NCBI RefSeq assembly: GCF_000317795.1
Contig: NC_019791.1
Span: 682,001 to 746,000 of the forward strand
Length of the DNA: 64,000 nucleotides
Source: Caldisphaera lagunensis DSM 15908
GTDB lineage: Archaea; Thermoproteota; Thermoprotei_A; Sulfolobales; Acidilobaceae
Direction of reading: 5' to 3'
The notes under the pieces were generated by a model. It saw only the letters and a program-made list of their open reading frames with translations. It was not told the origin of the DNA and did no database searches. Every line of letters begins with the position of its first letter. The first letter of the stretch is position 1. The translations under genes and the position numbers were made by a program. Shown one piece after another: positions 39 through 53,004 of this stretch.

Positions 39-476
39 TTATGATAGAATGAAGTTGTTATTAAATGAAAAAGCATGTTTTAAAATTTTTTTAACGTTGC
101 TATATGTATCTATTTTATCTATTTCTTCTCTTTTAAACCATTTGCCATTAATTAATGTTCCCCCTTTAAGCTTAACTAGGAATATTAAATCATAATGTAT
201 GTGAGTTTCATTGGGATATTTGACGATTTCATTCATAATTGCTAATGGTTTTGGTTCTTCTGTTGCTTCGTCTGTCGATAAATTGTTTTTCTCCCCATAA
301 ACTTCTACGTCAAGACCCGTTTCTTCTTTAAATTCTCTAATGGCAGCTTCCCTTGGTGTTTCATTAATTTCTACATGGCCACCTGGATATAACCACTTTT
401 TTAATTTTTCATGATACACAAGAAGTACCTCTTCGTTAACTATTAATATTCCTCCTGCAACAATACACTTCTTCGT
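39..476 (-). CDS. Nudix hydrolase, probable ACG start
   Basis: Nudix-family pyrophosphohydrolase. The Nudix box reads GGHVEINETPREAAIREFKEETG, with the catalytic REFKEE core near the N-terminal third. The first canonical codon in frame is GTG at 419, but that would remove the conserved first beta strand: the frame stays open upstream to a TAA at 480-482 and encodes CIVAGGILIVNEEVLLV, exactly what precedes the box in this family. No ATG, GTG or TTG exists there. ACG at 476, giving a start TKKCIVAGG, is my best candidate, with a weak GGCGAT five bases upstream. The substrate cannot be told; it could be a nucleotide or a sugar nucleotide. It is transcribed divergently from the antiporter gene. 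Confidence 0.75.
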   Translation of the reverse strand, partial: TKKCIVAGGILIVNEEVLLVYHEKLKKWLYPGGHVEINETPREAAIREFKEETGLDVEVYGEKNNLSTDEATEEPKPLAIMNEIVKYPNETHIHYDLIFLVKLKGGTLINGKWFKREEIDKIDTYSNVKKILKHAFSFNNNFILS

Positions 477-676
477 TTCTTATCGCCAAATGTTTTTAAT
501 GAAAATAAATTTTTATGCTTTATGGAAATTATATCTTATTTAATTAGAATAATTTTCAACTAAAAAATTCTTAACAAAAAGGTTAAATTGAAAATCATAT
601 TTAATAAAAGATCTTATTACGAGTCCTATAAATAAAAGATTTTAATCCTTACTTTTAAGTGTTTTTTGGAGTAAAG

Positions 677-1852
677 ATGTTAAGCGAGGTTATTTTAGCA
701 CTATTAGAAATATCATTATTAGTATTGTTTGCTGCATTAATGGGAAGCGTCGCTATTAGATTTAAATTCCCTAAGGTAGTCGGGGATTTATTGATAGGAA
801 TAATATTATCTCCATTTTTAATTGGAGGTTTTATAAACAAAATTATAGATGTAAATTTGTTCAGCATAAACAATTATTTGCTTTTGTTTTCAGAATTTTC
901 AGTAATTCTGCTTATCTATTCTATTGGGTTGGAGTCAGGTGTATCAGCTTTAAGATCATCAGGAATTTCAGGAATAATGGGAGCAATTTTTGGTGCAACG
1001 ATTCCTTTCATATTTGGAGCAATATTAATTAGATTTTTTGTTTCTTTTAGTGCTGCTTTAATCATTGGATCGGCCTTGGGCGCAACTAGTTTAGCTGTAG
1101 CTTCTTCTTTAATTAAGGAGACAAATTTAAAGGGTAATGGAGTTAATTTTATTTTAACTGCAGGATCTTTTGATGATGTCGTTTCTTTAATAATTTTATC
1201 TGTAGCTATAGCCATGAGCACTTTGAAAACTATAAGTTATGCTGATATATTAAGAACTATATTTTTCTATGGCATAGCATGGTTTATTATATTTGCAACA
1301 TCAGTTTTTATAATTCCAAAAATTTTTAATAATATTATAAAAGAAAAATATGTGTTTGAAGGATCATTAGTAATAATTTTTGCACTGACAGCTATTATGA
1401 CAACTCTTGGTTTTTCCCCAATTATAGCGGCATATATAGCTGGTGTAGCTATGGCTGAAAGTAATAAGGCCGCTAAATTAAGAGAAAATACAAACGCTTT
1501 GCTAGCTCTTTTTGGATCTATATTTTTTGTTACGATGGGGGCCCAAGTTAATTTAATAAAATTATCTTATTTCGGATTAATTTTTAGCTTATTTATAACA
1601 GCAATAGCAATAATTTTTAAAATATTAGGAATATATCCTTTCTCTTATTTAGCAACGAGAAGTCATAAATCAAGCTTAGCTATATCTATAGGTATGATCC
1701 CAAGAGGCGAAATAGGGCTAGCTGTTGCAAACATAGGTTTAACATATTCCATTATTAATGATGTAGAATTTTCATCTATAGTAATTATGTCCCTTTTGAC
1801 AACTATTTTAGGAGCCCTAATTTTTGGGAAAATATATCATTATATTAAATAA
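677..1852 (+). CDS. CPA2-type cation:proton antiporter (Kef/NapA-like)
   Basis: Integral membrane protein of about 390 residues made almost entirely of hydrophobic helices. The family signature GALGATSLAVASSLIKE-like segment is followed by AGSFDDVVSLI, the acidic pair in the ion-binding helix, so it is a monovalent cation:proton antiporter. There is no C-terminal TrkA nucleotide-binding domain, so it is the short form. I prefer ATG 677 because GGAG lies five bases upstream; an in-frame GTG at 659 would suit a leaderless transcript from the TATA-like TATAAATA at 628-635. Whether Na+ or K+ is transported cannot be read from the sequence. Confidence 0.85.
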   Translation: MLSEVILALLEISLLVLFAALMGSVAIRFKFPKVVGDLLIGIILSPFLIGGFINKIIDVNLFSINNYLLLFSEFSVILLIYSIGLESGVSALRSSGISGIMGAIFGATIPFIFGAILIRFFVSFSAALIIGSALGATSLAVASSLIKETNLKGNGVNFILTAGSFDDVVSLIILSVAIAMSTLKTISYADILRTIFFYGIAWFIIFATSVFIIPKIFNNIIKEKYVFEGSLVIIFALTAIMTTLGFSPIIAAYIAGVAMAESNKAAKLRENTNALLALFGSIFFVTMGAQVNLIKLSYFGLIFSLFITAIAIIFKILGIYPFSYLATRSHKSSLAISIGMIPRGEIGLAVANIGLTYSIINDVEFSSIVIMSLLTTILGALIFGKIYHYIK

Positions 1853-2073
1853 GAATTAGACATATTAAAATAAGAGTTCAAGTTTTGGTTATTATTAATT
1901 ATTTGTAAAATATATCATTATAAAATAAATGGAATTGTTATATTAAATTCTGTAAGATTTTGAAATATCAAGTATTCTTTCTATTATTTCTGAAAATGTA
2001 AAACGTATAAAAGCTTAAATATGAAAATAATATAAGGTTTTATAGATATAAATATTGTTGGGGATCAATAATT

Positions 2074-3309
2074 ATACCAATAAAAAAGACGCTGATTCCT
2101 ATAGGAGGATTAGGTACAAGACTTTACCCATTAACTGTTGATACTTCAAAGCCTATGGTTAGATTTTTAAATAATTTTCTAATAGATTATACCTTGTCTG
2201 AGCTTGCATATAGAGGTATTAATGAAGTTTTCTTGGGAGTTAGCGGTTATTATAATTATAGAGATGTTTATGATCATTTGGGAGAAAGGTTTAAGGTTAA
2301 AATAGATGGGGAAATCAAATCAATTAAATTGAGATATCAACCAAATGAAGATAGTATAGGAAATGCTCATTCTGTTAAAATAATGGCAGATTATTACGAT
2401 ATATATGATGATGTGCTTGTTTTTCAAGGAGATACTGTTGCTAGTATTAACGTTAATAATATATATAAATTTCATCAATCTAATGATGCATTTATGACAA
2501 TAGTCCTTAAGGAAATAGTAGAGCCAGAAAAGTTAAGACAATTCGGAGTTGCAAAGATTGATGAAAACATGAGGATCGAAAGCTTTGTTGAAAAGCCTAG
2601 CAATCCTAATGAATTACCATCAAGACTAGTCAATACTGGTATATATTTGTTATCAAGCGATTTTGTAAAATTTCTAAGATCATCAGAGTTTAATGAAATC
2701 CTTAAGCTAGGTAAAGGAGATTTTGGAAAAGATATTATACCTTATATAATCTCAAAGAATTATAAAGTTATGGGTTATGTAAGCAATAGTTATTGGTTTG
2801 ACGTAGGCACATTAGAAAGTTTTATGGAAGCATCATATTACCTTTTGAATAATTTAGATAAAGAGAGGCTTCATGTGGAAACTGAGTATAGAAATGTTTA
2901 TATGCAGGGCATGAGTAAGAGATCAAAGAATGATCATATAGAAATCATAGAAAAAATTGCAACGAACAAAATTATTGTTAGTGGAAAGAATTTAATAGGT
3001 AGGCATGTTAAAATAGGAGAAAATGTAAAATTATCATCGTCTATCATAGATAACTATACTGTGGTTGAAAATGATATGGAAATTTCTAATTCTATAGTTA
3101 TGGATAGGAGCTTATTGAAAACAGGCTCAATAATAAAGAACAGCATATTAGGTAGGCATGTTAAAATAGGAGAAAATGTAAAGATAATTAATAGTCATTT
3201 AGGAAATAATGTAATAATAGGCGATAATGCCGAATTAATAAATTCAAGCATTTGGCCTCATAGATCTATAGAGTCAAAATCTTCAATTGTTGATAGAAAA
3301 ATAATCTAA
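2074..3309 (+). CDS. NDP-sugar pyrophosphorylase with left-handed beta-helix domain; ATA start likely
   Basis: Sugar-1-phosphate nucleotidylyltransferase that makes an activated NDP-sugar for glycan or glycogen synthesis. The N-terminal nucleotidyltransferase domain has IPIGGLGTRLYPLT, the metal-binding aspartate in FQGDTVAS, and the FVEKP motif. The last about 130 residues are hexapeptide repeats (RHVKIGENVKL, NNVIIGDNAEL) that form a beta-helix, as in bifunctional archaeal enzymes. The only ATG near the start (2155) falls after the GGLGTR loop and cannot be right. The frame is open back to 2011 with no ATG, GTG or TTG; ATA 2074, seven bases after GGGGATC, gives IPIKKTLIPIGGLGTRL. Which sugar and nucleotide are used is unknown. 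Confidence 0.85.
   Translation: MPIKKTLIPIGGLGTRLYPLTVDTSKPMVRFLNNFLIDYTLSELAYRGINEVFLGVSGYYNYRDVYDHLGERFKVKIDGEIKSIKLRYQPNEDSIGNAHSVKIMADYYDIYDDVLVFQGDTVASINVNNIYKFHQSNDAFMTIVLKEIVEPEKLRQFGVAKIDENMRIESFVEKPSNPNELPSRLVNTGIYLLSSDFVKFLRSSEFNEILKLGKGDFGKDIIPYIISKNYKVMGYVSNSYWFDVGTLESFMEASYYLLNNLDKERLHVETEYRNVYMQGMSKRSKNDHIEIIEKIATNKIIVSGKNLIGRHVKIGENVKLSSSIIDNYTVVENDMEISNSIVMDRSLLKTGSIIKNSILGRHVKIGENVKIINSHLGNNVIIGDNAELINSSIWPHRSIESKSSIVDRKII
2996..3182 (+). repeat. 34-bp direct repeat in the beta-helix coding region
   Basis: Two identical 34-bp copies, 2996-3029 and 3149-3182, lie 153 bp (51 codons) apart in the same frame. Both encode a GRHVKIGENVK stretch of the hexapeptide domain. Exact identity including third positions suggests recent duplication or gene conversion rather than protein-level constraint. 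Confidence 0.9.
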
Positions 3310-3393
3310 ATTTTAAATAATTATTTATATGAAATATAGGAATAAATAATTTATATACAAATAAGAGTTTGAAATAATTATAGTGTTTTTGAT

Positions 3394-3558
3394 TTATTTT
3401 AATAAATTTGATAACATTTTACTTGCCTTTTCTGCAGCTTCGTCAACATTTTCTGCAGAAACATTAACTATAATGTTGCTATTCTTTTCTTTTAATCTGA
3501 ATCTATGTTCTCCGTTTAAAAAATATTCTTCAATTACTTCGAACTCATACTTTTGCAT
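3394..3558 (-). CDS. small conserved-looking protein, about 54 aa
   Basis: Short protein beginning MQKYEFEVIEEYF, with alternating charged and hydrophobic residues and an amphipathic C-terminal helix (AENVDEAAEKASKMLSNLLK). I do not recognise a named family; the beta-beta-alpha pattern with a C-terminal AxxVDEAxxKA helix resembles small single-domain archaeal proteins. The start at 3558 follows GGGTAATGGTA; the ATG at 3564 is an alternative. It is divergent from the aminotransferase gene, with AT-rich promoter-like sequence between them. Real by composition and start signal, function unknown. Confidence 0.55.
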   Translation of the reverse strand: MQKYEFEVIEEYFLNGEHRFRLKEKNSNIIVNVSAENVDEAAEKASKMLSNLLK

Positions 3559-3627
3559 TACCATTACCCAAATATATATAATATTCTTCAATTATATAAG
3601 ATTAACAGGAATGTAGGGTGGTTAAAT

Positions 3628-4974
3628 ATGGAAAGAGTACCAGATATTAAAGTTGAACCTCCAGGTCCAGAGGCAAGAAATGTAATTGAAAAAGACCAAA
3701 AATTATTGATGCAATCCTATGTTAGATGGTATCCTTTAGTAATAAAGACTGGGCATGGAGCTGTAGTAGAGGATGTTGATGGAAATAAATATATTGATAT
3801 GAATGCCGGCATTGCTGTTATGGCTTTAGGACATAATCATCCCAAGGTAGTTGAAGCAATAAAGCGTGAGGCGGAAAAGTTACAACATTATTCTTTAACG
3901 GACTTCTATTATGAGGAAGCAGTTACAAGTGCTGAAAAGTTGCTTTCAGTTGTACCAATAAAAAATGGAAAAGTTTTCTACACAAATAGTGGAACAGAGA
4001 GCATTGAGGGAGCGTTAAAAATAGCAAGATATTATCATGAAGGTAAAAGACAATATATTATAGCATTTTTGGGAGCATTTCACGGAAGGACTATGGGTTC
4101 ATTATCATTAACAGCAAGTAAGGCTCACTATAGAGAGCATTTTGCTCCTTTAGTCCCTGGTGTAATCCATGTACCTTATCCATATACTTATAGATGTCCA
4201 TTTAATACAGATGATCCAAAGGCTTGTGGAGAAGCTGTTTTGGGGTATATAGAGGATTGGATATTTACTAAGCTTGTAGAGCCCAGCGAAGTTGCAGCTA
4301 TATTTGTTGAACCAATTCAAGGGGAAGGAGGATATATTGTGCCTCCAGATAATTTCCTACCAGGCTTAAGAAAATTAGCTGATAAGTATAACATACTTTT
4401 AGTTGATGATGAGGTCCAATCAGGAATTGCTAGAACAGGTAAATGGTTTGCTATTGAAAATTGGAATGTTGTACCTGATATAATTGCTATGGCAAAGGCT
4501 ATAGGTGGAGGTTTGCCTTTAGGGGCTATTGTAGCAAAGGATAATGTTATGGATGCGATGAAAAAGGGAAGTCATGCTAATACATTTGGAGGTAACCCTA
4601 TAGCCTTAGCAGCAATGGAAGCTGTTATAGATACAATCAAAGAAGAGAAATTAACTGAAAGAGCAGCAAAGCTTGGTGATATGGTTTTAAGGTACTTTAA
4701 TGATCTTAAGGAAGAATTAGAAATAATTGGAGATGTAAGAGGAAAAGGTTTAATGATAGGTGTAGAATTAGTTAAGAATAAAAAGACTAAGGAGCCAGCA
4801 TCCAAAGAATTAGGTAGAATATTAGATAAATCTTTCAAGAAAGGGGTTTTAGTAATAGGCTCAGGGGTATCATCAATAAGAATTGCACCTCCCTTGGTAA
4901 TTGATGAAGATGTATTGGCAAGAGCTATTCAAATATTGGGAGATATATTAAAGGAAGAAAATAAAAATCTTTAA
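3628..4974 (+). CDS. class III PLP aminotransferase (GABA/ornithine aminotransferase or amino acid racemase branch)
   Basis: Fold-type I PLP enzyme of about 448 residues. It shows FTNSGTES-type substrate loop (FYTNSGTESIEGA), FVEPIQGEGGY, LLVDDEVQSGIARTGKWFA and the PLP-lysine segment AMAKAIGGGLPLGAI. The N-terminal KVEPPGPEAR motif is typical of archaeal members once called GABA aminotransferases, some of which turned out to be ornithine aminotransferases or broad amino acid racemases. Residue inspection cannot separate these. ATG 3628 is chosen because GGGTGG precedes it by about six bases; the upstream codons are not conserved-looking. A small winged-helix gene follows after 12 bases. Confidence 0.9.
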   Translation: MERVPDIKVEPPGPEARNVIEKDQKLLMQSYVRWYPLVIKTGHGAVVEDVDGNKYIDMNAGIAVMALGHNHPKVVEAIKREAEKLQHYSLTDFYYEEAVTSAEKLLSVVPIKNGKVFYTNSGTESIEGALKIARYYHEGKRQYIIAFLGAFHGRTMGSLSLTASKAHYREHFAPLVPGVIHVPYPYTYRCPFNTDDPKACGEAVLGYIEDWIFTKLVEPSEVAAIFVEPIQGEGGYIVPPDNFLPGLRKLADKYNILLVDDEVQSGIARTGKWFAIENWNVVPDIIAMAKAIGGGLPLGAIVAKDNVMDAMKKGSHANTFGGNPIALAAMEAVIDTIKEEKLTERAAKLGDMVLRYFNDLKEELEIIGDVRGKGLMIGVELVKNKKTKEPASKELGRILDKSFKKGVLVIGSGVSSIRIAPPLVIDEDVLARAIQILGDILKEENKNL

Positions 4975-4986
4975 AGAGGGAAGAAT

Positions 4987-5202
4987 TTGGATATAAATGA
5001 ATTAAAAAATAATATTTTATTTTTGTTGGAAAAGAACGATGAGTTAACTTTTGACGAAATTAAAAAAATGTTAAATTGGAGCGGAGATTCTAGGCCTTTG
5101 AGGAAAGCTTTATCAGAATTAGTAAGGGAATCAAAGGTGCAAAGAGTCCCAAATTATGAAAGAAGAAGAATGGTGTTTAAAAAGGGAAATAATAATGCAT
5201 AA
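4987..5202 (+). CDS. small winged-helix protein, 71 aa
   Basis: TTG start behind GAGGGAAGAA. The whole protein is a winged-helix fold: three helices (INELKNNILFLLEKND, TFDEIKKMLNW, PLRKALSELVRES) and a wing (KVQRVPNYERRRMVFKKG). It is probably a DNA-binding regulator or a structural winged-helix domain. It lies 12 bases after the aminotransferase stop and overlaps the next gene, so it is likely cotranscribed with both. Its target is unknown. Confidence 0.7.
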   Translation: MDINELKNNILFLLEKNDELTFDEIKKMLNWSGDSRPLRKALSELVRESKVQRVPNYERRRMVFKKGNNNA

Positions 5203-5386
5203 AATTCAAGGATTAAAAATAATTGGTATTATAGCCTTTACATTATCATTGTTATCATTTATATTATCAATTATAGCATTTTTTAAATTTAAATCTTATG
5301 ATTATTTAGGTATCTCATTCTTTTGGATTTTTATTTCATTGATCTCACTGCTATTAAGCAGAGTCTCCAATAATAGAGTAAGCTGA
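5195..5386 (+). CDS. small two-helix membrane protein
   Basis: Starts at ATG 5195, which overlaps the end of the winged-helix gene by eight bases. It has a short basic N-terminus (MHKIQGLK), two predicted membrane helices (about 9-29 and 36-55) and a short basic tail. I do not recognise the family. The longer reading from 5156 would run through the preceding gene and is not needed. Its 3' end overlaps the convergent winged-helix gene by 33 bases. Confidence 0.5.
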   Translation: MHKIQGLKIIGIIAFTLSLLSFILSIIAFFKFKSYDYLGISFFWIFISLISLLLSRVSNNRVS

Positions 5387-5569
5387 TGTTGAATACCTTT
5401 TTACATAACCCATTTTTTCTAGATGTTTCAATATTTTTCCTGATGTTTTATTTGATATCCCAAAATATCTTGAAAAGTCTTTTATAGTAATATACCTTTT
5501 ATTAAGTCTCTTTAATTCTTCAGCTATCAAATCTAAGTTTACTGTGACCTTTAAATAGCTTTTTCTCAT
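5354..5569 (-). CDS. winged-helix DNA-binding protein, 71 aa
   Basis: MRKSYLKVTVNLDLIAEELKR, then a classic helix-turn-helix (YITIKDFSRYFGISNKTSGKILKHLEKMGYVKRYS) and a short wing. This type of minimal winged helix is widespread in Crenarchaeota. I chose ATG 5569 because TGGTGAT lies a few bases upstream and the preceding codons give only low-complexity hydrophobic sequence. It is divergent from the gene at 5644, with about 75 bases between the two starts. The regulatory target is unknown. Confidence 0.7.
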   Translation of the reverse strand: MRKSYLKVTVNLDLIAEELKRLNKRYITIKDFSRYFGISNKTSGKILKHLEKMGYVKRYSTSAYSIIGDSA

Positions 5570-5643
5570 TATATCACCAAAATAAAGTAACCTTTTAAAT
5601 TTGCGAGCCCCAGAATAACAAATGTAAAAGAGGTGAAGTGAAA

Positions 5644-5940
5644 GTGACACAAAATAATAAAATATATACAAAATATAAAAAATTAATTGAGCTGTTAAAT
5701 TTAAGACAATTAGATGTATATAGAATTGTAAGTAAAGATGGTAAAATAAAGGAAATAGCAAGAATAATGGATCCTGTAACTAAAAAGGTTGTACAAGTTG
5801 ATCTAGGTACAGTTAGAGAATCATTAAATTACTTGGAATTTTTAAATAAAATAAAAGAAGGAGTTACAAAAGAAGGGATAAATATAAATGATAGAGTATG
5901 GAATAGTACGTTAAAATTAATAGAGAAGGCAGGCAAATAA
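5644..5940 (+). CDS. conserved-looking small protein, 98 aa
   Basis: MTQNNKIYTKYKKLIELLNLRQLDVYRIVSKDGKIKEIARIMDP... Basic N-terminus, then mixed helix and strand; the end (NDRVWNSTLKLIEKAGK) is amphipathic. I do not recognise a family, although the middle (RESLNYLEFLNKIKEG) could be a winged-helix recognition segment. GTG 5644 is preferred over GTG 5638 because GAGGTG at 5630-5635 leaves eight bases. It is divergent from the small winged-helix gene, which might regulate it; this is inference. Confidence 0.55.
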   Translation: MTQNNKIYTKYKKLIELLNLRQLDVYRIVSKDGKIKEIARIMDPVTKKVVQVDLGTVRESLNYLEFLNKIKEGVTKEGININDRVWNSTLKLIEKAGK

Positions 5941-5970
5941 ATATTAATTTTTGATTTATCTAGTAGAATT

Positions 5971-6006
5971 TTATACCATTGTTAACCGGGGAGTTAACAA
6001 TGATAA
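5971..6006. promoter_or_regulatory. strong GTTAAC inverted repeat
   Basis: CATTGTTAAC (5977-5986) and GTTAACAATG (5993-6002) form a perfect 10-bp stem with loop CGGGGA. A further TTAT/ATAA pairing (5971-5974 with 6003-6006) extends it after a two-base bulge. It sits between the stop at 5940 and the NifX-like start at 6091. It could be a terminator or processed RNA end of the upstream gene, or a dimeric-protein operator. Confidence 0.6.
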
Positions 6007-6090
6007 AATAATTCCATAAATTTTTAGAATTTTTTAACTAGCATTTAGATATATATACTTTAAAATTTCTTAGTTTAATGGGTATTAAAC

Positions 6091-6423: not shown

Positions 6424-6484
6424 GCATTTATTTTTATAGATAATTTTATTTTGTCCTGTTTTATAAATATATTAGGGTAAAATT

Positions 6485-7027: not shown

Positions 7028-7058
7028 TAAATTTCAAATTTAATTGGTGGACTATAAC

Positions 7059-8192: not shown

Positions 8193-8208
8193 ATTTTTAG
8201 AGATTAGA

Positions 8209-12912: not shown

Positions 12913-12917
12913 ATAAA

Positions 12918-23065: not shown

Positions 23066-23291
23066 TTAGTTCACCGATTTCCTTATTTTCCTTGATCATT
23101 AGAATAAATTATAGCAAAAGAGTATTAACTTTTCTTTAGATTACAATTCTAGTGAAATAATGATATAGCATTCTAATATGATTTTAAGTTGAAAAATATA
23201 TTTTAAATTCGTTTATACGAATAGAGCTTTAAAATATATTATCTTAACTTTAAAATAAAACAATGGAAAGTAAAAAAGAAGGTGCGATAAC

Positions 23292-23780
23292 ACGTCATAT
23301 AAAATAGATGCAGCAGTCTTAGTATTATTGTTTGGTACACCTCCTAGAGTGTTAATGGTTAGAAAGAATTGTCTTGTCTCTGGTAGATTCTCATGTGATC
23401 TAGCTTTTCCTGGAGGACATATAAAAAAAGGTGAAACCTATATTGATGCAGCGTTAAGAGAAGCTTGGGAAGAGGCTAATGTATTTCCAAAATTTGTTAA
23501 AATTTTAGGTGTTATGGATGTTCATGAAACAGCTTCAAAACCAGTAGTTAAAGTTTTGCCTGTTATAGGAGCTTTAAATGGGCCTATAGATGCTAAACCT
23601 AAAGATACTGAAGTTGATTATGTTATATGGATACCTTTAGATTCTATTGGAGAACCAAGATTAGTTTTTCATCCTATAAGAGGATATGTATATGGATATA
23701 CATTACCAGGTAATCTGGTCATATGGGGTCTATCTTATAGGATAATAAATGATTTGAAAAGTAAATTTTGTAAAAGTTAA
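23292..23780 (+). CDS. Nudix hydrolase of the CoA-pyrophosphatase-like type, probable ACG start
   Basis: Nudix box FPGGHIKKGETYIDAALREAWEEANV is intact; the preceding LAFPGG is like that of NUDT7/8-type proteins. The first canonical codon, TTG 23328, cuts off the first beta strand. Upstream the frame encodes TSYKIDAAVLVLL and then reaches a stop at 23271 without any ATG, GTG or TTG. ACG 23292 lies seven bases after a clean GGTG (23281-23284), making it the best-supported non-standard start in the window. Substrate is not proven; CoA or a nucleotide is possible. Confidence 0.8.
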   Translation, partial: TSYKIDAAVLVLLFGTPPRVLMVRKNCLVSGRFSCDLAFPGGHIKKGETYIDAALREAWEEANVFPKFVKILGVMDVHETASKPVVKVLPVIGALNGPIDAKPKDTEVDYVIWIPLDSIGEPRLVFHPIRGYVYGYTLPGNLVIWGLSYRIINDLKSKFCKS

Positions 23781-30048: not shown

Positions 30049-31935
30049 TTATTTGTTTAAAATAGATCTATTTCTCATAACATACCAAATTGCTATTAAT
30101 AAAACTATTATTATTATCCATGAAATAATCTCATCTAACTTGTTTGATGTATTTTGAGGTAAGTTGAGAATATCAATAATATACATAGAAGCTGACCAGG
30201 TTAAAGGCGAAGTTGTTGGTAAAGGATTTCCGTAATTAGGATCTATAGCTTCTGGTAGCAATCCATTCTGGGAATGATTATAAGCCCAGTTAAGCAAGTT
30301 TATTGCTCCAGTGATATTATTAATTTGTTCATAATAATATGCTAAAAATAAAGTAGTTATTATCCATGGGGGATTAGGAGCAGAGCTATCATATAATGAT
30401 TGAGAATAATGATAATCATCCCCTATAAAACGTGACAATCCTCCTAAAACAGTCAAATGGGCTATTTCTTGATTAACATCGCTATATGCCGTGTTAGATT
30501 CAGGTGATATGAAACCAAGGCTTAAAGGAAGTATTGTTGATGAATCAAATCTTGAATAAGCAGGGGATAAGATTATTTCTTGTGTGTTATTTATATATAA
30601 AACAGCTTTATTTAATGTTGGATAGAAATATTTACCATTCCAAAAATATTTTATTATGCTCTCATTAAGTAAATTTTCATAGTACTTTATCAAGCTATTA
30701 TTTATTCCTAGATATTGATAGATGAGAGAAGAATAATATAAACCTATGTCATCAATTGATTGGGTCCAAAAATTATATCCCATATTACTTTCCCAAACGC
30801 TTAAATCTTCAGGCATTAGATGAAACTTACTATTATTTATTTGGTTTATTTCATATTGTATTGTTTTATTTAATGCAGGAAGAACTGATGTAAGGAAACT
30901 ATAGTTATGAGTTATTTGAAAGTAATTATATACCCCTATTTGAAATAGACCAATACTATCTAGTTCAGGAATACCAAAACTTATATCAGGTTCTCCATTA
31001 TAAAAATTATATCTAGTATACCAATTATTACCGCTAAAAATGTTAGATTCCCAAATCCAATATTTATATGAGGAGTTCAAATGATTGCCATCTTGAAGTG
31101 CCATGGCTGCAAAGGAAGAATCTCTAAGCCAATTGTATAAATAAATGGGTGAAGGGGATGCTGCAAATTCGCCAGTTATGGGATTTTGACTATCTTTGAT
31201 AAAAAGCAATGACAAATAATAATCTGAAATTAAATTATTGCTAATTTCGAAATTTTTAATGTTTTTTGATTTATATAGCCAATTATTAACCTCATTATTA
31301 TTATAATTTATCAAATATTTAGGCTGATAATATTTTGAACCATTTATAGAAAATTCTAAATATCCATTGGTATTATACGATAATTCCAAAATTTTAGTAT
31401 TGTTTTCTATAATAATATTAGCTGTTCCATTAAAATATATATAAATAGATGGTGTACCATTAATAATTGCTTCATCTTTATAAATTGATATTGTATAATT
31501 AAGAGGAATATAAATAGAAGATTTTAAAATATTTTTAGGATATATTAAAACAAAAATTAAGTTTAAGTATGGTGGGGTCATAATATTTATAATTCCATTA
31601 TTTCCTTTAATTGTTATAGTGTTGTTTAAATTTAAGCTCGCATAGTATGATGGATATACATTAAAAGAAATGTTATATGGTAATATTCCGCTATTTCCAA
31701 AATAAATATTTTTTATTGATGCATTTGAATTCTGAAAACCGTTTAATGTACTGTTTGGTATTGGTATTCCAGTTGTTATTAATACATTAATAGTTTTCCA
31801 ATTACTTAACAACAAGTATGATGGATAATAGCTAAGTTCTCTATTATAAGTATATTGATCTGCTCTGGAAACATATATTATTGGACTTACTATTATAATT
31901 AATAATAGCAGTGTTAATATAACTTTTTTATTTAT
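30049..31935 (-). CDS. membrane-anchored GH15 glucoamylase-like protein, ATA start
   Basis: 628 residues. GH15 features: NWLRDSSFAAMALQDG near the middle, then IPELDSIGLFQIGVYNYF and EDLSVWESNMGYNFWTQSIDDIGL, containing the general acid and base region, and an (alpha/alpha)6 barrel to about 580. An N-terminal beta domain precedes it. C-terminal helix IIIIVLLIAIWYVM and RNRS anchor it outside the cell. The first canonical codon (TTG 31815) lacks any signal peptide, while the open frame upstream encodes NKKVILTLLLLIIIVSPIIYVSRA, an ideal one. It begins at ATA 31935, six bases after GAGGTGG; no ATG, GTG or TTG is available. It likely releases glucose from external starch or oligosaccharides. Confidence 0.78.
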   Translation of the reverse strand: MNKKVILTLLLLIIIVSPIIYVSRADQYTYNRELSYYPSYLLLSNWKTINVLITTGIPIPNSTLNGFQNSNASIKNIYFGNSGILPYNISFNVYPSYYASLNLNNTITIKGNNGIINIMTPPYLNLIFVLIYPKNILKSSIYIPLNYTISIYKDEAIINGTPSIYIYFNGTANIIIENNTKILELSYNTNGYLEFSINGSKYYQPKYLINYNNNEVNNWLYKSKNIKNFEISNNLISDYYLSLLFIKDSQNPITGEFAASPSPIYLYNWLRDSSFAAMALQDGNHLNSSYKYWIWESNIFSGNNWYTRYNFYNGEPDISFGIPELDSIGLFQIGVYNYFQITHNYSFLTSVLPALNKTIQYEINQINNSKFHLMPEDLSVWESNMGYNFWTQSIDDIGLYYSSLIYQYLGINNSLIKYYENLLNESIIKYFWNGKYFYPTLNKAVLYINNTQEIILSPAYSRFDSSTILPLSLGFISPESNTAYSDVNQEIAHLTVLGGLSRFIGDDYHYSQSLYDSSAPNPPWIITTLFLAYYYEQINNITGAINLLNWAYNHSQNGLLPEAIDPNYGNPLPTTSPLTWSASMYIIDILNLPQNTSNKLDEIISWIIIIVLLIAIWYVMRNRSILNK

Positions 31936-32093
31936 TTCCTTCCACCTCTTTTCACTTTGTTAAACAATACAATTTAAAATATTTAATTTTATTCTATAAA
32001 TTTTATCTTCGTGTTTAAATGAATATCTTAAATAATTTATGTACATGTAGAATTATATACTTTAGATATATATTATATTTATGGGGGAGAAAA

Positions 32094-36460: not shown

Positions 36461-37159
36461 ATGAGAGTAGAGGTTAAAAAATCTTATAGGGATCAATATA
36501 TAGGTGTGTATAATTTGGCTAAAATAAAGGTTTTAGGTGAAGAATTACCTATAGCAAGATATTTATTAAAAAAATTAAGAGATAAAAATACTTCATTATC
36601 AGAATTTAGGAAAGCTATGAGTAATGCAGGCAAAATATTAGCTATAGAAAGTTCTAGAGAATTAATGTGGAGACAAGAAAAGGTTATTACTCCTTTAAAT
36701 CAGGAAGCAGTAGAACTTGAGTTAATAAATCAGCCATTGCTTGTAGGGATTCTAGGTGCAGCCTTACCATTAATGGAGGGATTTATTGATATATATCCTG
36801 ATGCGCCAATAGGCTTAGTTGCTGCAAAAAGAAATGAAATTTATGGATCAATAAATATAGATATATATTATAAAAGGTTACCTGAAAGATATGATGAAAT
36901 TGCTTATCTTATTGATCCTATGCTTGCAACAGGGAAGACTATGGATAAAGTAATCGATGAATTATATAAACGTGGAATTAAGAAAATTATAATTGCATCA
37001 GTTATTTCATCAAAACCAGGAATCAACTATTTATTGTCCTTATATGATAACTTAGTCATATATTCTCTTTCAATTGATAATAATTTGGATGATAATTTCT
37101 TTATTATTCCAGGATTAGGTGATGCAGGGGATAGAGGTTTAGGTATTGAACCTCATTAA
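36461..37159 (+). CDS. upp: uracil phosphoribosyltransferase
   Basis: 232 residues. The PRPP-binding motif is AYLIDPMLATGKTMDKVIDEL, and the uracil loop is FFIIPGLGDAGDRGLGIEPH at the C-terminus. The early segment RKAMSNAGKILAIE and PIGLVAAKRNE fit UPRTase. It salvages uracil to UMP in the cytoplasm. It starts at ATG 36461, close to the divergent ATP synthase gene with about 29 bases between starts. Confidence 0.93.
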   Translation: MRVEVKKSYRDQYIGVYNLAKIKVLGEELPIARYLLKKLRDKNTSLSEFRKAMSNAGKILAIESSRELMWRQEKVITPLNQEAVELELINQPLLVGILGAALPLMEGFIDIYPDAPIGLVAAKRNEIYGSINIDIYYKRLPERYDEIAYLIDPMLATGKTMDKVIDELYKRGIKKIIIASVISSKPGINYLLSLYDNLVIYSLSIDNNLDDNFFIIPGLGDAGDRGLGIEPH

Positions 37160-39130: not shown

Positions 39131-39236
39131 GCCGCGGTCGTATAGTCTGGCCTAGTATGCGGGCCTGTCAAGAGTAATGTGAGAAAAATCTCACAGATAG
39201 CCCGTGACCCGGGTTCAAATCCCGGCCGCGGCGCCA
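39131..39236 (+). tRNA. tRNA-Asp (GTC) with a 28-nt intron
   Basis: Acceptor GCCGCGG (39131-39137) pairs with CCGCGGC (39226-39232). T-arm CCGGG TTCAAAT CCCGG is perfect. Anticodon stem CGGGC (39160-39164) pairs with GCCCG (39200-39204), anticodon GTC at 39167-39169. The intron 39171-39198 sits at the canonical position 37/38 and holds a TGTGAG/CTCACA hairpin, consistent with the bulge-helix-bulge splice structure. Discriminator G 39233 is followed by an encoded CCA. TATA-like AATTTAAATAACG lies about 40 bases upstream. Confidence 0.95.
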
Positions 39237-46422: not shown

Positions 46423-46520
46423 CCATATTAACCCTGTGAAATATTAAAAAACTGAAATATAAAACTTTTTCCATATAATATATATTTTGGAGCATAATTT
46501 TAAAATAAATAGGGATTTAA

Positions 46521-47174: not shown

Positions 47175-47201
47175 AAATTATTAACTATTAAAAATACTTA
47201 T

Positions 47202-47798
47202 TTATAATCTTTTTTCCCATAAATTTGTTAAATCATGTCTTTTTATTTCTCTCATCATCGATTCTAGCCTTTTATATACTGTGCTATGCATTCTTCCATC
47301 TATTAAAAGTTCAATTCCGTATTGTGCAATGGTTGCCCTATCATAATCCCCTATAACACCTATAAGATTATTTCCTATATGGATGGAAGTACCAGTTATT
47401 TCTTCTATTGTTCTTTTGGCTCTACCATCTTCTCCTATAATTCTTCCCATAACTCTTTTTATATGATTATTAGAATCTCCCACTTTAGATTTTATATCTA
47501 TTACGATTAAAACATTTTCCTCATCGAGTAGCTTTAATGCTTCTTCTTTAACAAATCCTATCGATAATGCTTGTATTATATCTTTTGCTTTCATCATGTC
47601 TGCAGGCGATGTGTTGTTATCTAACGGTTCAATAGTTATTAATGAGCTATTATTATCAATTTCTACCTTTACTTTTAATCTCTCTTCTATGTAATTTTTT
47701 ATTTCATTGAAATGCTTTAGGAAGATTTCTTTGTTTTCTGATGGTATCTGGGAATAGATTTTAACCCATTTTTCTATTCTTCCTTCTCTTCCAGACAT
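47202..47798 (-). CDS. KH-domain protein, archaeal Dim2/Pno1-like
   Basis: 198 residues with two KH domains. The second holds the functional GxxG loop in VMGRIIGEDGRAKRTIEEITGTSIHIGNNLIGVIGDYD. Archaeal relatives of Dim2/Pno1 bind the 3' end of 16S rRNA during small-subunit maturation. The gene overlaps the Rio1 kinase gene by 25 bases; Dim2, Rio1 and eIF1A together form a conserved archaeal ribosome-assembly operon. Confidence 0.88.
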   Translation of the reverse strand: MSGREGRIEKWVKIYSQIPSENKEIFLKHFNEIKNYIEERLKVKVEIDNNSSLITIEPLDNNTSPADMMKAKDIIQALSIGFVKEEALKLLDEENVLIVIDIKSKVGDSNNHIKRVMGRIIGEDGRAKRTIEEITGTSIHIGNNLIGVIGDYDRATIAQYGIELLIDGRMHSTVYKRLESMMREIKRHDLTNLWEKRL

Positions 47799-48556
47799 TT
47801 TAAAATCCCCTTTTCGTATTCTTCATATTCTTCGATTTCTATTAGTTTTGAAAAAAAGGAATATACGTTTTTCAAGTCTCTTTTAAGATATGACATAGCA
47901 TTTGGGTGGTTTATATCAACGGATTGCGATACATCTATTATATATGGTTTTGATTTCCAATACATGATATTATATTCACTTAAATCGGCATGAACTATTT
48001 TGGCATTACAAACCATTTTCATTATATTTTCTTTAGTGTCATGATAAATTTTTTCAATTTCTTCATCTTCTAATTCTTTATAAATTTCATTAATTAATGG
48101 CGCTCTATAACCATTTTCGCCTATAAATTCCATGACCAAAACATTACCTGATAATCCCAAAGGTTGAGGCACATTTATTCCATTTTTCTTCAATTTATCT
48201 AGATTGGTATATTCTTTTTTTGCCCATAAATAGATTAATGATCTAAACTTGTTAGGTATTGATTGGAATCTTGGATCGCCTGATATGTATTCCTTTATGC
48301 TTTTCCTAAACTCTGCAGCCGATGTTAAAAATATTTTTATTGCTATTTCCTCATTATTATAACTCTTTCCCCAATAAAGCTTAGATTCTTTTCCTGAGCT
48401 AAAAGACCCTTTTATTTCTTTTATAATTCTTTTGTTTATTAGCTTGTCTATATGATAATTTGTAAAAGAATCTAAAACCTCATCAACCGTTTTTACAATA
48501 TCTTCATCTTTTATTCTTTTCTCAACTTTTCCTTTTTCATCAAAATATCTTTTCAA
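47774..48556 (-). CDS. rio1: RIO1-type serine protein kinase
   Basis: 260 residues. P-loop substitute SSGKESKLYWGKSYNNEEIAIKIFL, catalytic loop IVHADLSEYNIMYW and metal-binding YIIDVSQSVDINHPNA are the RIO1 signatures. It acts in late 30S maturation. Overlaps eIF1A by four bases upstream and the KH gene by 25 bases downstream. Confidence 0.94.
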   Translation of the reverse strand: MKRYFDEKGKVEKRIKDEDIVKTVDEVLDSFTNYHIDKLINKRIIKEIKGSFSSGKESKLYWGKSYNNEEIAIKIFLTSAAEFRKSIKEYISGDPRFQSIPNKFRSLIYLWAKKEYTNLDKLKKNGINVPQPLGLSGNVLVMEFIGENGYRAPLINEIYKELEDEEIEKIYHDTKENIMKMVCNAKIVHADLSEYNIMYWKSKPYIIDVSQSVDINHPNAMSYLKRDLKNVYSFFSKLIEIEEYEEYEKGILKCLEEKEE

Positions 48557-48894
48557 CCACTTTCCTCTCCCAAGAGATCCTTAGAAAGAAGTCCTTTTTG
48601 AATCAATTCTCTTACTTCATTTTGTTGATATTTATGGACAACCTCTCCTTTCATATCTGAAGTTCCCCATGGAAGGAACAATATAGTATCCCCTTCATGT
48701 AACCAAATTCTTCTTCTCATTTTCCCGGGTATCCATGCTTTGTATTTGTTTCCGTCTGTACAAACGACTTCTAAAAATCCTGCTCCTATCACTTTTTGGA
48801 CTACACAAATCATGGTGCCTTCTTCATCATTCGGTAAAGGCATTTCCCCTTTAGAGTTATTGCTATTCTTTTGCTTAACCAAATTTATTTTCAT
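48553..48894 (-). CDS. eif1a: translation initiation factor aIF1A
   Basis: 113 residues. MICVVQKVIGAGFLEVVCTDGNKYKAWIPGKMRRRIWLHEGDTILFLPWGTSDMKGEVVHKY is the S1-like OB fold of eIF1A, with the short basic N-terminus and helical C-terminus. It promotes mRNA scanning/start selection on the small subunit. First gene of a three-gene operon with rio1 and the KH protein. Confidence 0.95.
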   Translation of the reverse strand: MKINLVKQKNSNNSKGEMPLPNDEEGTMICVVQKVIGAGFLEVVCTDGNKYKAWIPGKMRRRIWLHEGDTILFLPWGTSDMKGEVVHKYQQNEVRELIQKGLLSKDLLGEESG

Positions 48895-48966
48895 CTCCCT
48901 ATATATTTAGTATGAAATAGGTTATTTTAATTTTATGTAGTATATGATAACAAAACCTTTTTTCAT

Positions 48967-48999
48967 CCTCCTCACAAAAGACCCCCGTGAGGGCGGAGG
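48967..48999. other. GC-rich hairpin upstream of the aIF1A operon
   Basis: CCTCAC (48970-48975) pairs with GTGAGG (48987-48992); CCTCC (48967-48971) can alternatively pair with GGAGG (48995-48999). The loop has AAAAGACCCCC. This is the only GC-rich island in a 730-base AT-rich gap and so may be a structured RNA or the end of a lost mobile element; the decayed reading frame follows it. Confidence 0.35.
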
Positions 49000-49179
49000 T
49001 AGTTATAATGTAGCAGAATAAATGCCATTATAGAGATATTTTTATTATATATGATTCGAATTTTAAACCAAGATATAAAAATCACGCCATGGTTTTAAGT
49101 AATTGAATAATTTATGTATTCAAAGGATAATCTTCCTATATTTACTTCATTTATGATATCACTTAGAAACCCATTCCGT

Positions 49180-49474
49180 TAGGAGAGCGAATCATAAAAT
49201 GATAATTAGCAATAAAATTAAATCCTGGGTAATGTTTCCCATGAAATGTTGTTTTCCTGAAAGTATAGATAGAAGGCTGAACTAGCTTATGCCTTAATGA
49301 AAGGTATGAGTTGGATATACAAACACCCTAAAGAGGAAATGAAGGTATACCATGAAGGATATTAGAAAATCCAATCCCCGAAATGGTGAAGTAGTTTACA
49401 AAACATTACAAAATGATTTTTCGTTAGAATTAAAGCCTAGAATATTGGAAAAATCTACTAAAATCAAAATCTAG
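49180..49474 (+). pseudogene. decayed coding remnant, unidentified
   Basis: Inside the otherwise gene-free stretch 48895-49622, successive frames carry protein-like pieces: SWVMFPMKCCFPESIDRR (from about 49222), then, after a shift, AELAYALMKGMSWIYKHP followed by KEEMKVYHEG (about 49276-49364), then a 40-residue frame from ATG 49352 to TAG 49474. Stops and shifts separate them. It resembles a broken gene, possibly a transposase, but I cannot identify the family. The remaining bases on both sides show nothing more. Confidence 0.3.
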
Positions 49475-49622
49475 AAAAATATGTTTAAAGGATAAAAACT
49501 ATTAATTTGGCAAAAGATATTCATTGGAAATGAATGGTTTATATTCTATTATTAATGCATAATTAAATATAATTAAGAATAGGGTTCAGCTTACGAATTA
49601 ATTCATTTAATATTAATAATGA

Positions 49623-50819
49623 TTATAGCAAAGATATAAATCCGATAAACCCTCCTATAACAACCATTGCTGAAAGCACCCAATAAACTTTTAGTCTAAC
49701 ACCTTTTATTGGCTTTCCTTTCATAATTTTTTCATCAGAAATTAATCTACCTAAATAATATAAAGGAGGCGCTACTATTATTGTATAAATTACCATTAAT
49801 TCTAACATTAAATATATTAAATTTTTAGATATTAATACAATCAATATAGCAGGTAATGACTCTAAAGAGTAAATAATAATGTACCATTTATGTTTATTTA
49901 TATTTAAAGCTTCTAAGGCCCCCCATGCAGAAGCCATGGATATAACAACTAATGCCAAAAAACCAGATGCTATGAAACCAATCCCTAATAAATACAATAG
50001 ATTTGTATTAAAGCTAGTCAAAATTTTTTCAAATGTATAAGGATTTATGATACCATCTGAATTGATATTTGGATCAATTTTTGCAAGATTATAGCCAACA
50101 ATAACTGTTATAACCATTAAGATCTCAGATACAAGTGCTCCAATAAATGTTTCCAATCTTTCGTATTTTAGATTTTCTGTTTTTATTTTTTTTCTTGAGT
50201 CTGCTCCAGAATGGAAAAATAGCATCCAAGGCATAATAACAGCTCCAATACTTGCAGCTAATAAGAAATTGTAATTTTTGTTATTATAAGGTTGTATTGG
50301 ATTTAATCCATAAAATAATAATTCTTTTGAATTAATAGGGAACATTGTTGCAATCCAAATAGTTGCTACGACTAAAATAAAGCTTATTGGTATTAGAAAC
50401 ATTTCAGCATGTCTATACCTTTTGCTAGTTGCAACGGCTATATGAAATATAAATATAATTATTAGTCCAATTATTAATGGAATTCCCAATAATTGAAGGC
50501 CGATCCCTATACCTGCATATTCTACAACATATTCCAAAAAATCAGTTATTGTCATTGGTATTGATGCAATTATTGCTTGTTTTTTCCCAAATTTTTTTCT
50601 AATAGCCTCTCCTAATCCCATGCCAGATATTGTTCCTAATGTTCCTGCTGCATCCTGTATAAAGAATAGAGGAATTGTTAGTATTAACATTATAAATATC
50701 ATTCTGTATCCCCAAGCAATACCGGACTGCAGACCTTCTATTATCGATGCTACATCTACATCAGCTATCATTACTATCCATGCAGGTCCAAATGTTTTTA
50801 ATAGTTCTTTGTATTCCAT
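49623..50819 (-). CDS. NRAMP-family divalent metal transporter with altered metal site
   Basis: 398 residues, about 11 membrane helices. Helix 1 GPAWIVMIADVDVASIIEGLQSG aligns with the NRAMP metal motif DPGN, which here is DVAS (Asp22 kept, Asn to Ser). Helix 6 has GAVIMPWMLFFHSGADS, where most NRAMPs have MPH. FIQDAAGTLGTISGMGLGEAIRKKFG is also typical of the family. Mn2+/Fe2+ is the usual cargo, but the altered residues leave specificity open. ATG 50819 has GAGAGGATAAG upstream. A DtxR-like palindrome sits 40 bases before the start, arguing for metal-responsive control. Confidence 0.8.
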   Translation of the reverse strand: MEYKELLKTFGPAWIVMIADVDVASIIEGLQSGIAWGYRMIFIMLILTIPLFFIQDAAGTLGTISGMGLGEAIRKKFGKKQAIIASIPMTITDFLEYVVEYAGIGIGLQLLGIPLIIGLIIIFIFHIAVATSKRYRHAEMFLIPISFILVVATIWIATMFPINSKELLFYGLNPIQPYNNKNYNFLLAASIGAVIMPWMLFFHSGADSRKKIKTENLKYERLETFIGALVSEILMVITVIVGYNLAKIDPNINSDGIINPYTFEKILTSFNTNLLYLLGIGFIASGFLALVVISMASAWGALEALNINKHKWYIIIYSLESLPAILIVLISKNLIYLMLELMVIYTIIVAPPLYYLGRLISDEKIMKGKPIKGVRLKVYWVLSAMVVIGGFIGFISLL

Positions 50820-50858
50820 TCTTATCCTCTCATGTATAATTCACAATTTTAAAGTATT

Positions 50859-50874
50859 TTTAGGCAAGCCTAAA
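50859..50874 (-). promoter_or_regulatory. DtxR/MntR-like palindrome before the NRAMP-family gene
   Basis: TTTAGGC AA GCCTAAA has perfect 7-bp arms and resembles the DtxR/IdeR/archaeal MDR1-type operator TTAGGYnAnCCTAA. It lies 40 bases upstream of the NRAMP-family start, just upstream of a TATA-like CTTTAAAAT. A second inverted pair AATTTAG/CTAAATT lies at 50884-50903, also between this gene and the divergent tmk. Binding of a DtxR-family repressor is inference. Confidence 0.6.
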
Positions 50875-51002
50875 CTTTAAGGGAATTTAGATCTCCCTAA
50901 ATTCTGTATATGTAGTTATACCTTTTATATCTTTTATAAAAACACTGATAATCATAAAAAGAATTTAATAGGAGAACTATTATTTTATGCCCGGTGCAAA
51001 TA

Positions 51003-51653
51003 TTGGAAAAAGGTTTGCTAATAGCATTTGAAGGTATTGATGGTAGTGGATTAACTACACATTCAAAATTATTAAACGAGAAGTTAAACAAATTAGGATA
51101 TAAATCGATTTATACAAAGGAACCTACTAACAATGAGATTGGTATATTAATACAAAAAATTATTTTAGATAAAAATAAGAAATTGGATAACAATATAATT
51201 GCTCTATTATTTGCAGCGGATAGGCTTTATCATTTGATGTATGGTGATGGTGCAAATGAAGGAATTTTAAGCTATATCAGTAAAAATTATATTGTAATAT
51301 CAGATAGGTATAAATATTCTAATATGGCGTATCAAGGAGATGATATTAATTGGATAAGTCAATTAAACAAGTTTGCAATTGAGGCAGATATAATAATATA
51401 CTTAGATGTTCCGTTAGATGTGGCATTAAAAAGGATATCTATGAGGTCTTCGGTATCTATATTTGAAAATAAGATATTTTTAGAAAAAGTAAAGAACAGG
51501 TATAACGACATTTTAAGGTTGGCTAATAAGAATGGAGTAAAAGTAGTAGTTATTAATGAGATAGCTGATAATAATAGGGAGAAAAGCATAGATGAGGTAA
51601 GTGAAGAAATTTTAAAAAATATAATTAATATTTTAAGAAATTTTAAAAAATAA
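51003..51653 (+). CDS. tmk: thymidylate kinase-like protein lacking the P-loop lysine
   Basis: 216 residues. LIAFEGIDGSGLTTHSKLL is the dTMP kinase P-loop, but position 17 is leucine where almost all NMP kinases have lysine (GSGKT). The DRY motif SDRYKYSNMAYQGDD and YTKEPTNNEIG (substrate region) are intact, as is YLDVPLDVALKRI. So the fold and dTMP site are kept; ATP binding may use another residue. TTG 51003, six bases after GGTG, is preferred; GTG 50994 is possible. Whether the enzyme is active cannot be said. Confidence 0.8.
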   Translation: MEKGLLIAFEGIDGSGLTTHSKLLNEKLNKLGYKSIYTKEPTNNEIGILIQKIILDKNKKLDNNIIALLFAADRLYHLMYGDGANEGILSYISKNYIVISDRYKYSNMAYQGDDINWISQLNKFAIEADIIIYLDVPLDVALKRISMRSSVSIFENKIFLEKVKNRYNDILRLANKNGVKVVVINEIADNNREKSIDEVSEEILKNIINILRNFKK

Positions 51654-51725
51654 TTATAAATAAAATTTTTAAGGAATAGTAAAGCTTATATTTATCTTAA
51701 CGCGTTAAATTTTCGGGGATAAAGA

Positions 51726-52025
51726 TTGAATAAAGATAAGGCAACTGGAGCATTATTAATGGTCATATCTGTTGTCGTTATATTAGCATATTTAATAATA
51801 TTGTGGTATCCACCAATAGCAGCCAAGGCTGCATTAACATTACTCAAACTAACTGGCAGTATTGCGGTATTAGCTATATTCGCTATAATAGGATGGATAG
51901 GCTATACATTGGTAACAACCCCTCCGCCAAAGCCAATTGAAGAAATAGAGAAAGAGCTTGAAAAAGAATTAAAGGAAATAGAGAAGGAAACTAAAGAGGA
52001 AAGTCAAAAACAAGCCAATCCTTAA
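51726..52025 (+). CDS. small membrane protein with acidic cytoplasmic tail
   Basis: 99 residues: two membrane helices (about 8-28 and 38-62), a proline-rich linker TTPPPKP and a charged helix EEIEKELEKELKEIEKETKEESQ. The family is unknown to me, but the two-helix plus coiled-coil layout is seen in several crenarchaeal proteins. TTG 51726 follows GGGGATAAAGA. Confidence 0.6.
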   Translation: MNKDKATGALLMVISVVVILAYLIILWYPPIAAKAALTLLKLTGSIAVLAIFAIIGWIGYTLVTTPPPKPIEEIEKELEKELKEIEKETKEESQKQANP

Positions 52026-52257
52026 AAAAGATTATAAAAATAAATATTTCTATTGATAAGTTGAAAAATTTTGATTAAATATTTTTAAAGTAATTTGGAA
52101 TTTGGTATTAATATTTATTAAATTATGAAAAATTTATCTATTGATGACAACTTTTATAATTTGGCATCATGAATTAAAATTAGAGGTAGTATGCATAAAG
52201 TCTATAGGATTAGTTATTAACTAAATTTAATACGGTTAGGGTGAGGTGTAGGCTAAA

Positions 52258-53004
52258 ACGAACAAAATTCAAACTATATTGATCGTTGTTGTAATAGCCA
52301 TAGTTATTATAGGAGGTTTTTTAGCATTTAATAAGAGCAACAAAAATGTTACACCAACATCAACAAGCTCTATAACAACATCAACAACAAGTAGTAATTT
52401 AATAAGCGTTACACCTTTATTACCATATATTAATAGTCCTCTAGTTCCAACATATGGAAATCCTTCATCAAAATATTATTTATTTATAATTTATGATCCA
52501 GAATGTCCTTATTGTGCAATAGAATTTAATAATACATTACCATATTTATATTATCTAGCAAAAAATAATTATACAATGCTTGTTTTTGTAGGAATGCCCA
52601 TTCATCAATATTCATTAGAAATGATTGCTATGTTGGATTTAATTTATCAAAAATATGGTTTTACTCAATTTTACAAAATATTAGACAAAGATTATGCAAT
52701 ATATTATTATAATATACTATTATATGAAAACAATAAAACTTCTCAATTGCAAGTTCCAACTCCATATACAATCTATATGTTACTTAATCAAAGTAATTTA
52801 TCAATAAATTACAATGATATAAATTCTACAATGAAAGATGCTTATAATATTGCTGACTTGGCATATACTCAAGGTATAGATGCAACCCCTATGCTAATTA
52901 TTTATAATACAAATACAGGTAATACTATTAATCAATTTATAGGTTTATATTCACCAATAGAAATAGAAAGTTATTTAAATAAAACCCTAGGGGTCAGGCA
53001 GTGA
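52258..53004 (+). CDS. extracytoplasmic thioredoxin-fold (DsbA-like) protein, ACG start likely
   Basis: 248 residues. An N-terminal membrane anchor NKIQTILIVVVIAIVIIGGFLAF is followed by a Ser/Thr linker (TPTSTSSITTSTTSS) and a DsbA/thioredoxin domain with IYDPECPYCAIEF (CPYC) and a cis-Pro segment GIDATPMLIIYN near the end. The TTG at 52279 would delete the charged start of the anchor. ACG 52258, nine bases after GAGGTG, gives an ideal NKI... anchor; no other start codon exists back to the TAG at 52249. It likely folds disulfide proteins outside the cell. Its stop overlaps the next gene. Confidence 0.75.
   Translation, partial: TNKIQTILIVVVIAIVIIGGFLAFNKSNKNVTPTSTSSITTSTTSSNLISVTPLLPYINSPLVPTYGNPSSKYYLFIIYDPECPYCAIEFNNTLPYLYYLAKNNYTMLVFVGMPIHQYSLEMIAMLDLIYQKYGFTQFYKILDKDYAIYYYNILLYENNKTSQLQVPTPYTIYMLLNQSNLSINYNDINSTMKDAYNIADLAYTQGIDATPMLIIYNTNTGNTINQFIGLYSPIEIESYLNKTLGVRQ

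Follow-up and report, generated by a model that had tools for sequence, protein, structure and literature searches.

Which codons initiate translation in five genes whose reading frames contain no ATG, GTG, or TTG back to the preceding stop codon? This question is raised by the window analyzed here, a stretch of 64,000 nucleotides corresponding to positions 682001-746000 of the 1,546,846-base single-contig genome of Caldisphaera, a heat-loving archaeon (G000; G+C content, 30%). In the following, ATG, GTG, and TTG are called canonical start codons, and any other codon is called non-canonical; to our knowledge, ACG is not among the start codons of NCBI table 11. An earlier note on this DNA stated that the five frames lack canonical codons and that the genes start at ACG or ATA. 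The former statement was confirmed by reading and by a script: the first canonical codon after the upstream stop is at +19, +28 (counted from 2071), +12, +40, and +7 in genes 1-5, respectively. The latter holds for the three ACG codons (genes 1, 3, and 5), which are conserved across species, but the ATA at 2074 (gene 2) is not conserved and the ATA at 31935 (gene 4) is a weaker case.

Genomes and definitions

The closest named relatives of G000 are Acidilobaceae archaeon UBA158 (G004), a sister species, and Caldisphaera sp. KMA_Bin23 (G001). Protein identity between G000 and its two congeners was 82-91% at one locus, and the assemblies of the congeners are independent of that of G000. Two more distant species (G002 and G003) were compared for gene 5. 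From UBA158, 735 kb, about half of the genome, entered the comparison. Long open reading frames were used to train a dicodon model, which called 1487 genes in G000. The SD register is counted from an anchor, the mRNA base that aligns with the first position of GGAGGTGATC.

ACG starts of genes 1, 3, and 5

The features of these genes, in window coordinates, are as follows.

39..476, minus strand: gene 1, Nudix hydrolase, from the ACG start to the stop (Pfam PF00293, E=2e-15)
474..476, minus strand: ACG start codon of gene 1
482..487, minus strand: weak SD of gene 1, GGCGAT, register 14
23280..23284, plus strand: SD of gene 3, AGGTG, register 14 to the ACG
23292..23780, plus strand: gene 3, Nudix hydrolase, read from ACG 23292 (Pfam PF00293, E=2e-15)
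52243..52248, plus strand: SD of gene 5, GAGGTG, register 16
52258..53004, plus strand: gene 5, membrane-anchored thioredoxin-like protein with an N-terminal membrane segment, read from ACG 52258 (Pfam PF13098, E=2e-6)

The ACG of gene 1 is shared with UBA158, and KMA_Bin23 has ATG at the same position. The ACG codons of genes 3 and 5 are found in G000, UBA158, and KMA_Bin23; at the start position of gene 5, the more distant G002 and G003 have ATG. The ribosome-binding sites are retained as well. GGCGAT of gene 1 is conserved in UBA158 (ccGGCGATgaaacACG), again at register 14. AGGTG of gene 3 is conserved in UBA158 at register 15 and is also present upstream of the ACG in KMA_Bin23. The register of gene 5 in UBA158 is 15.

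In UBA158, the first canonical codon of gene 1 is about 80 codons in, past the Nudix region. Over the 80 codons upstream of it, there are 18 synonymous and 13 non-synonymous codon differences between the two species. Codon conservation, coding constraint, and SD spacing strongly support the near-cognate initiation that had been proposed for genes 1, 3, and 5, and these three ACG starts are solid cases.

In place of the near-cognate codon, ATG is found in the gene 1 ortholog of KMA_Bin23 and in the gene 5 orthologs of G002 and G003. The reverse exchange is seen in another gene of the window, in whose UBA158 counterpart the next in-frame canonical codon after the ATA is at +15.

36461..37159, plus strand: uracil phosphoribosyltransferase-like gene (named from sequence, without a domain search), ATG in G000 and ATA at the same position in UBA158

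ATA codons of genes 2 and 4

Comparison with the relatives, the check suggested in the earlier note, recovered the same ACG in genes 1, 3, and 5 but not the ATA codons of genes 2 and 4. Neither ATA is conserved among the relatives compared.

2060..2066, plus strand: SD-like GGGGATC of gene 2, 7/10 matches to GGAGGTGATC, register 14 to ATT 2071
2071..3309, plus strand: gene 2, NDP-sugar pyrophosphorylase-like, best read from ATT 2071 (Pfam PF00483, E=5e-44)
2074..2076, plus strand: ATA proposed earlier as the start of gene 2; ACA in UBA158, ACT in KMA_Bin23
30049..31935, minus strand: gene 4, secreted or membrane glycosyl hydrolase 15-like (Pfam PF00723, weak, E=9e-8)
31933-31935, minus strand: proposed ATA start of gene 4, register 14 from a strong GAGGTG
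31943..31948, minus strand: GAGGTG of gene 4, either the SD for ATA 31935 or the site of an ancestral GTG start that is now out of frame

A non-canonical start of gene 2 is supported by 8 synonymous versus 2 non-synonymous differences in the 32 codons ahead of the first canonical codon. The codon is most likely ATT 2071, not ATA 2074: position 2071 is ATT in G000 and UBA158 and ATC in KMA_Bin23, in which AGGTGA stands in place of GGGGATC. The codon at 2074 is ATA, ACA, and ACT in the three species. The ATA at 2068 is conserved as well, yet its register is 11. The exact start codon of gene 2 is ambiguous.

In gene 4, the relatives begin with ATG, both in UBA158, where it is three codons upstream of the ATA, and in KMA_Bin23. 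The GTG homologous to the ATG start of UBA158 sits one base out of frame in G000. Near-cognate initiation at ATA 31935 is possible, as is a 1-nt indel, either real or a sequencing error. A GH15-like paralog of gene 4 in UBA158 (locus L164, contig C75, 181-1245) contains five in-frame stops and is a decayed copy.

Genome-wide survey of shared non-canonical starts

The survey covered 628 reciprocal-best orthologs in the 735 kb of UBA158, of which 586 were testable. BLOSUM scoring of upstream conservation, used alone, returned 274 hits, most of which were conserved promoters or short leaders. When synonymous differences ahead of the first canonical codon were scored against non-synonymous ones, 27 entries were left, which were then inspected. 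A conserved-SD screen combined with the synonymous scoring added gene 5. The frequency survey called for in the earlier note thereby gave about 8 of the 586 testable pairs (1.4%) as non-canonical in both G000 and UBA158, and up to 1.7% when CTG cases are included. The cases are listed below in genome coordinates.

682476, minus strand: gene 1, ACG
705292, plus strand: gene 3, ACG
734258, plus strand: gene 5, ACG
860712-861359, plus strand: UppS, undecaprenyl-diphosphate synthase, ACG (Pfam E=1e-52)
1262641: membrane protein, ACG
105457-106602, plus strand: AroC, chorismate synthase, ATC (Pfam E=2e-123)
684071, plus strand: gene 2, ATT
679791-680540, minus strand: ABC transporter ATPase, GTT at 680540, exact codon uncertain
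860608 (minus strand) and 1504084: possible shared CTG starts, canonical codon 11-12 codons downstream
776557: aldehyde dehydrogenase, ACG in G000 only, first canonical codon at +91
1385533: ATT after GAGGTGA, in G000 only

The same near-cognate codon, or ATG, is found at the start position in relatives for genes 1, 3, and 5, UppS, AroC, and the membrane protein at 1262641. The genes show no obvious common pathway.

Four of the eight solid cases lie in the window, versus 57 of the 618 reciprocal-best pairs in the set before final filtering (p ~0.004, a post hoc test, as the window was picked because of the five genes). Judged post hoc, such starts are much denser in the window than in the genome as a whole. 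The ABC ATPase lies about 1.5 kb outside the window; together with genes 1 and 2, it would bring the number of non-canonical starts in a stretch of about 3.5 kb to three.

Several entries were rejected on inspection. At 1248797, the UBA158 protein extends upstream, probably a case of a truncated copy; at 1145249, the upstream conservation is promoter-like; at 485808, an SD and ATG are present; and at 1252934, the upstream frames differ. The entries at 1270501 and 1320560 were graded neither convincing nor rejected. A list of non-canonical codons at SD spacing in the two species, made without filters, was discarded as well, being dominated by SD-like words inside genes.

Downstream starts would delete motifs of UppS, AroC, and the ABC ATPase

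UppS has ACG in G000, UBA158, and KMA_Bin23, that is, in all three species where the pattern was found. In UBA158, its first canonical codon is 55 codons after the ACG, past the HIGIIPDGNRRWA motif, and 18 synonymous versus 8 non-synonymous differences are observed upstream of the first canonical codon. The divergent neighbour of UppS (860608, minus strand) may begin at CTG.

AroC has ATC after GAGGTGA in both G000 and UBA158. The first canonical codon is at +5 in G000 and at +34 in UBA158, where it is past GNSLGRIF..TTFGESHG (GNSxG...TTFGESHG). Upstream of it, 9 differences are synonymous and 2 are non-synonymous. A test for the ACG pattern in AroC of other relatives found none.

The ABC ATPase frame contains no canonical codon for 24 codons in G000 and for 75 codons in UBA158, in which the first one is past Walker A (GPSGVGKST). 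The upstream differences are 22 synonymous versus 3 non-synonymous. GTT GGA ACA GTT is conserved after GGGGCGGATGA, and the start is probably GTT.

The motifs lost by an internal start are parts that these families need. An upstream codon must be used, because an internal start would take essential parts from UppS and, in UBA158, from AroC, the ABC ATPase, and the gene 1 product. Conserved genes that must start outside AUG, GUG, and UUG number at least six, and two of them encode biosynthetic enzymes whose active sites are well known.

SD spacing and codon statistics

In the G000 genome, SD-led ATG, TTG, and GTG starts peak at register 12-15. The SDs of the near-cognate genes lie at this canonical-start register: the 12 preferred non-canonical sites in G000 have register 14 (n=9), 13 (n=2), or 16 (n=1). 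The SDs of gene 1 and UppS are imperfect.

Gene bodies contain 2.8 ACG, 41 ATT, and 61 ATA per 1000 codons. Because ATT and ATA are such common codons here, finding one of them correctly spaced counts for less than finding ACG or ATC. Among in-frame ACGs before the first canonical start, 5 of 29 have an SD at 12-16 bases, versus 2.5% for all codons (6.9-fold enrichment, Fisher p = 7e-4, in a test that also counts the window genes from which the question arose). ACG is the most SD-enriched near-cognate codon in this region. A genome-wide count of SD plus codon, without conservation, showed no clear ACG excess, owing to background.

Probable initiation at near-cognate codons and its alternatives

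ARAGORN gave three tRNAs with a CAT anticodon in the G000 genome, one initiator-like and two others. Two of the three are plain, one of these being initiator-like with an unchanged CTCATAA loop, and the third is intron-bearing and labelled Ala. No second or altered initiator tRNA was recognized by ARAGORN in this genome. A threonine tRNA for ACG, with what we read as a CGT anticodon, is intron-bearing and labelled Ser. In the aIF1 gene (genome 1127155), an ATG stands in frame where the N-terminus is expected, and a non-canonical start of this fidelity-factor gene is not indicated. With normal tRNAs and the ATG of aIF1, neither a code change nor autoregulation of aIF1 through its own start is indicated.

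The upstream coding constraint, the conserved codons, the fixed SD register, and the initiator-like tRNA with its unchanged CAT anticodon are direct observations. They make it very likely that these genes use SD-assisted near-cognate initiation by Met-tRNAi, kept over the divergence of the genus and probably of low yield. SD pairing would set the 30S subunit on the mRNA with the near-cognate triplet in its P site, at the usual spacing. The ordinary Met-tRNAi would pair with one mismatch, at position 2 for ACG and at position 3 for AUU or AUC. The start codons used would be mainly ACG, also ATC and ATT, and probably GTT and CTG. The product would be a full-length protein starting with Met. We infer initiation at exactly that codon, insertion of Met, and a reduced yield; the yield is probably low because aIF1 destabilizes complexes on non-AUG codons, as reported for Sulfolobus and Pyrococcus (PMC6237735, PMC8211752).

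Initiation at the downstream canonical codons, with the upstream conservation being non-coding (promoter or RNA), is improbable. Conserved promoters can mimic coding extensions, and a few hits, such as genome 1145249, look so. However, the upstream differences are mostly synonymous, orthologs of other species have ATG at the ACG position, and a downstream start would leave out catalytic or nucleotide-binding motifs of UppS, AroC, the ABC ATPase, and the gene 1 product.

Conversion of ACG to AUG by C-to-U editing of the mRNA, as in plant organelles, seems highly improbable. Although mutation toward A/T would favour ATA, ACG is the commonest non-canonical start and outnumbers ATA in this AT-rich genome, while being rare in gene bodies; this would fit editing, but it suggests instead that ACG is better tolerated than ATA as a start, editing being much less likely. 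The ATC, ATT, CTG, and GTT starts would be left unexplained by editing, and archaea are not known to us to edit C to U in their mRNAs.

That the true codons are ATG and that the G000 sequence or assembly is wrong at the starts is an extremely unlikely explanation of the set. In gene 4, a GTG start would be regained by a single-base difference from UBA158 beside A-rich runs (GGAAATAAATAAAAAAG), and for this gene an error is possible. The earlier argument against sequencing error is upheld for genes 1, 3, and 5: for these and UppS, two or three assemblies, made independently and from different species, show the ACG, which refutes error for the ACG genes, and the ATC of AroC is present in two assemblies.

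That ACG is read as a start by an unusual initiator tRNA or through a local change of the code has next to no probability: no support for it was found in the tRNA set described above, and a code change is not indicated because the initiator anticodon loop is unchanged and ACG is read by the CGT tRNA.

Relation to known systems

The probable near-cognate initiation in Caldisphaera has its best parallels in bacterial infC and sigR. infC starts with AUU in E. coli and with AUC in Streptomyces, Streptomyces sigR starts with GTC, and such starts are repressed by IF3 (PMC5472188). As in Caldisphaera, these are conserved starts other than ATG, GTG, and TTG that gene callers missed, AUC and AUU are used, and the putative GUU of the ABC ATPase would resemble the GUC of sigR (PMC5472188). 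Unlike them, the Caldisphaera set comprises many unrelated metabolic genes, is dominated by ACG, and would depend on aIF1, aIF1A, and aIF2, not IF3. The Caldisphaera aIF1 gene itself has ATG available, and IF3-type regulation is hypothetical here. It is conceivable, but rather doubtful, that these near-cognate genes are regulated as a group, in which ACG, AUC, AUU, and GUU starts would be kept by selection across Caldisphaera through aIF1-dependent stringency as an archaeal counterpart of IF3 with infC and sigR; C-to-U editing of ACG would be the extreme version.

The in vitro systems with aIF1 contain the same machinery, and near-cognate starts in Caldisphaera would be limited by aIF1; those studies used test mRNAs, and their available text names no natural gene starting with ACG or AUC (PMC6237735, PMC8211752). 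The natural mRNAs described here make archaeal start-codon stringency directly testable.

A review names, in its available text, only AUG, GUG, and UUG as starts (PMC7531240). In a study of start-codon switches among close relatives, including archaea, 61,358 ancestral AUG codons gave 2 CUG and 1 AUU, and ACG is absent from its text; that study relies on gene starts as already assigned, and cases like those in Caldisphaera would escape it (PMC5622118). A full-text literature search, mostly of non-subscription papers, returned nothing pertinent on ACG or other near-cognate starts in archaea. ACG and GUC starts have reportedly been studied in haloarchaea. In bacteria, single cases are known; the literature searched contained no conserved set dominated by ACG in a crenarchaeal genus. 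Standard gene finders would clip the N-termini of these proteins, and in genomes of this kind, gene finding restricted to ATG, GTG, and TTG misplaces perhaps 1-2% of protein starts.

Two other tRNA genes

It should be mentioned that an intron-bearing tRNA reported by ARAGORN as 'Stop(tta)' (genome 1463030-1463141, plus strand) has the loop CTTTTAA, which fits tRNA-Lys(TTT) better; this tRNA is probably no suppressor. In the window, an intron-bearing tRNA-Asp(GTC) at 39131-39236 (plus strand) was missed by the default scan and was found by an intron-permitting scan.
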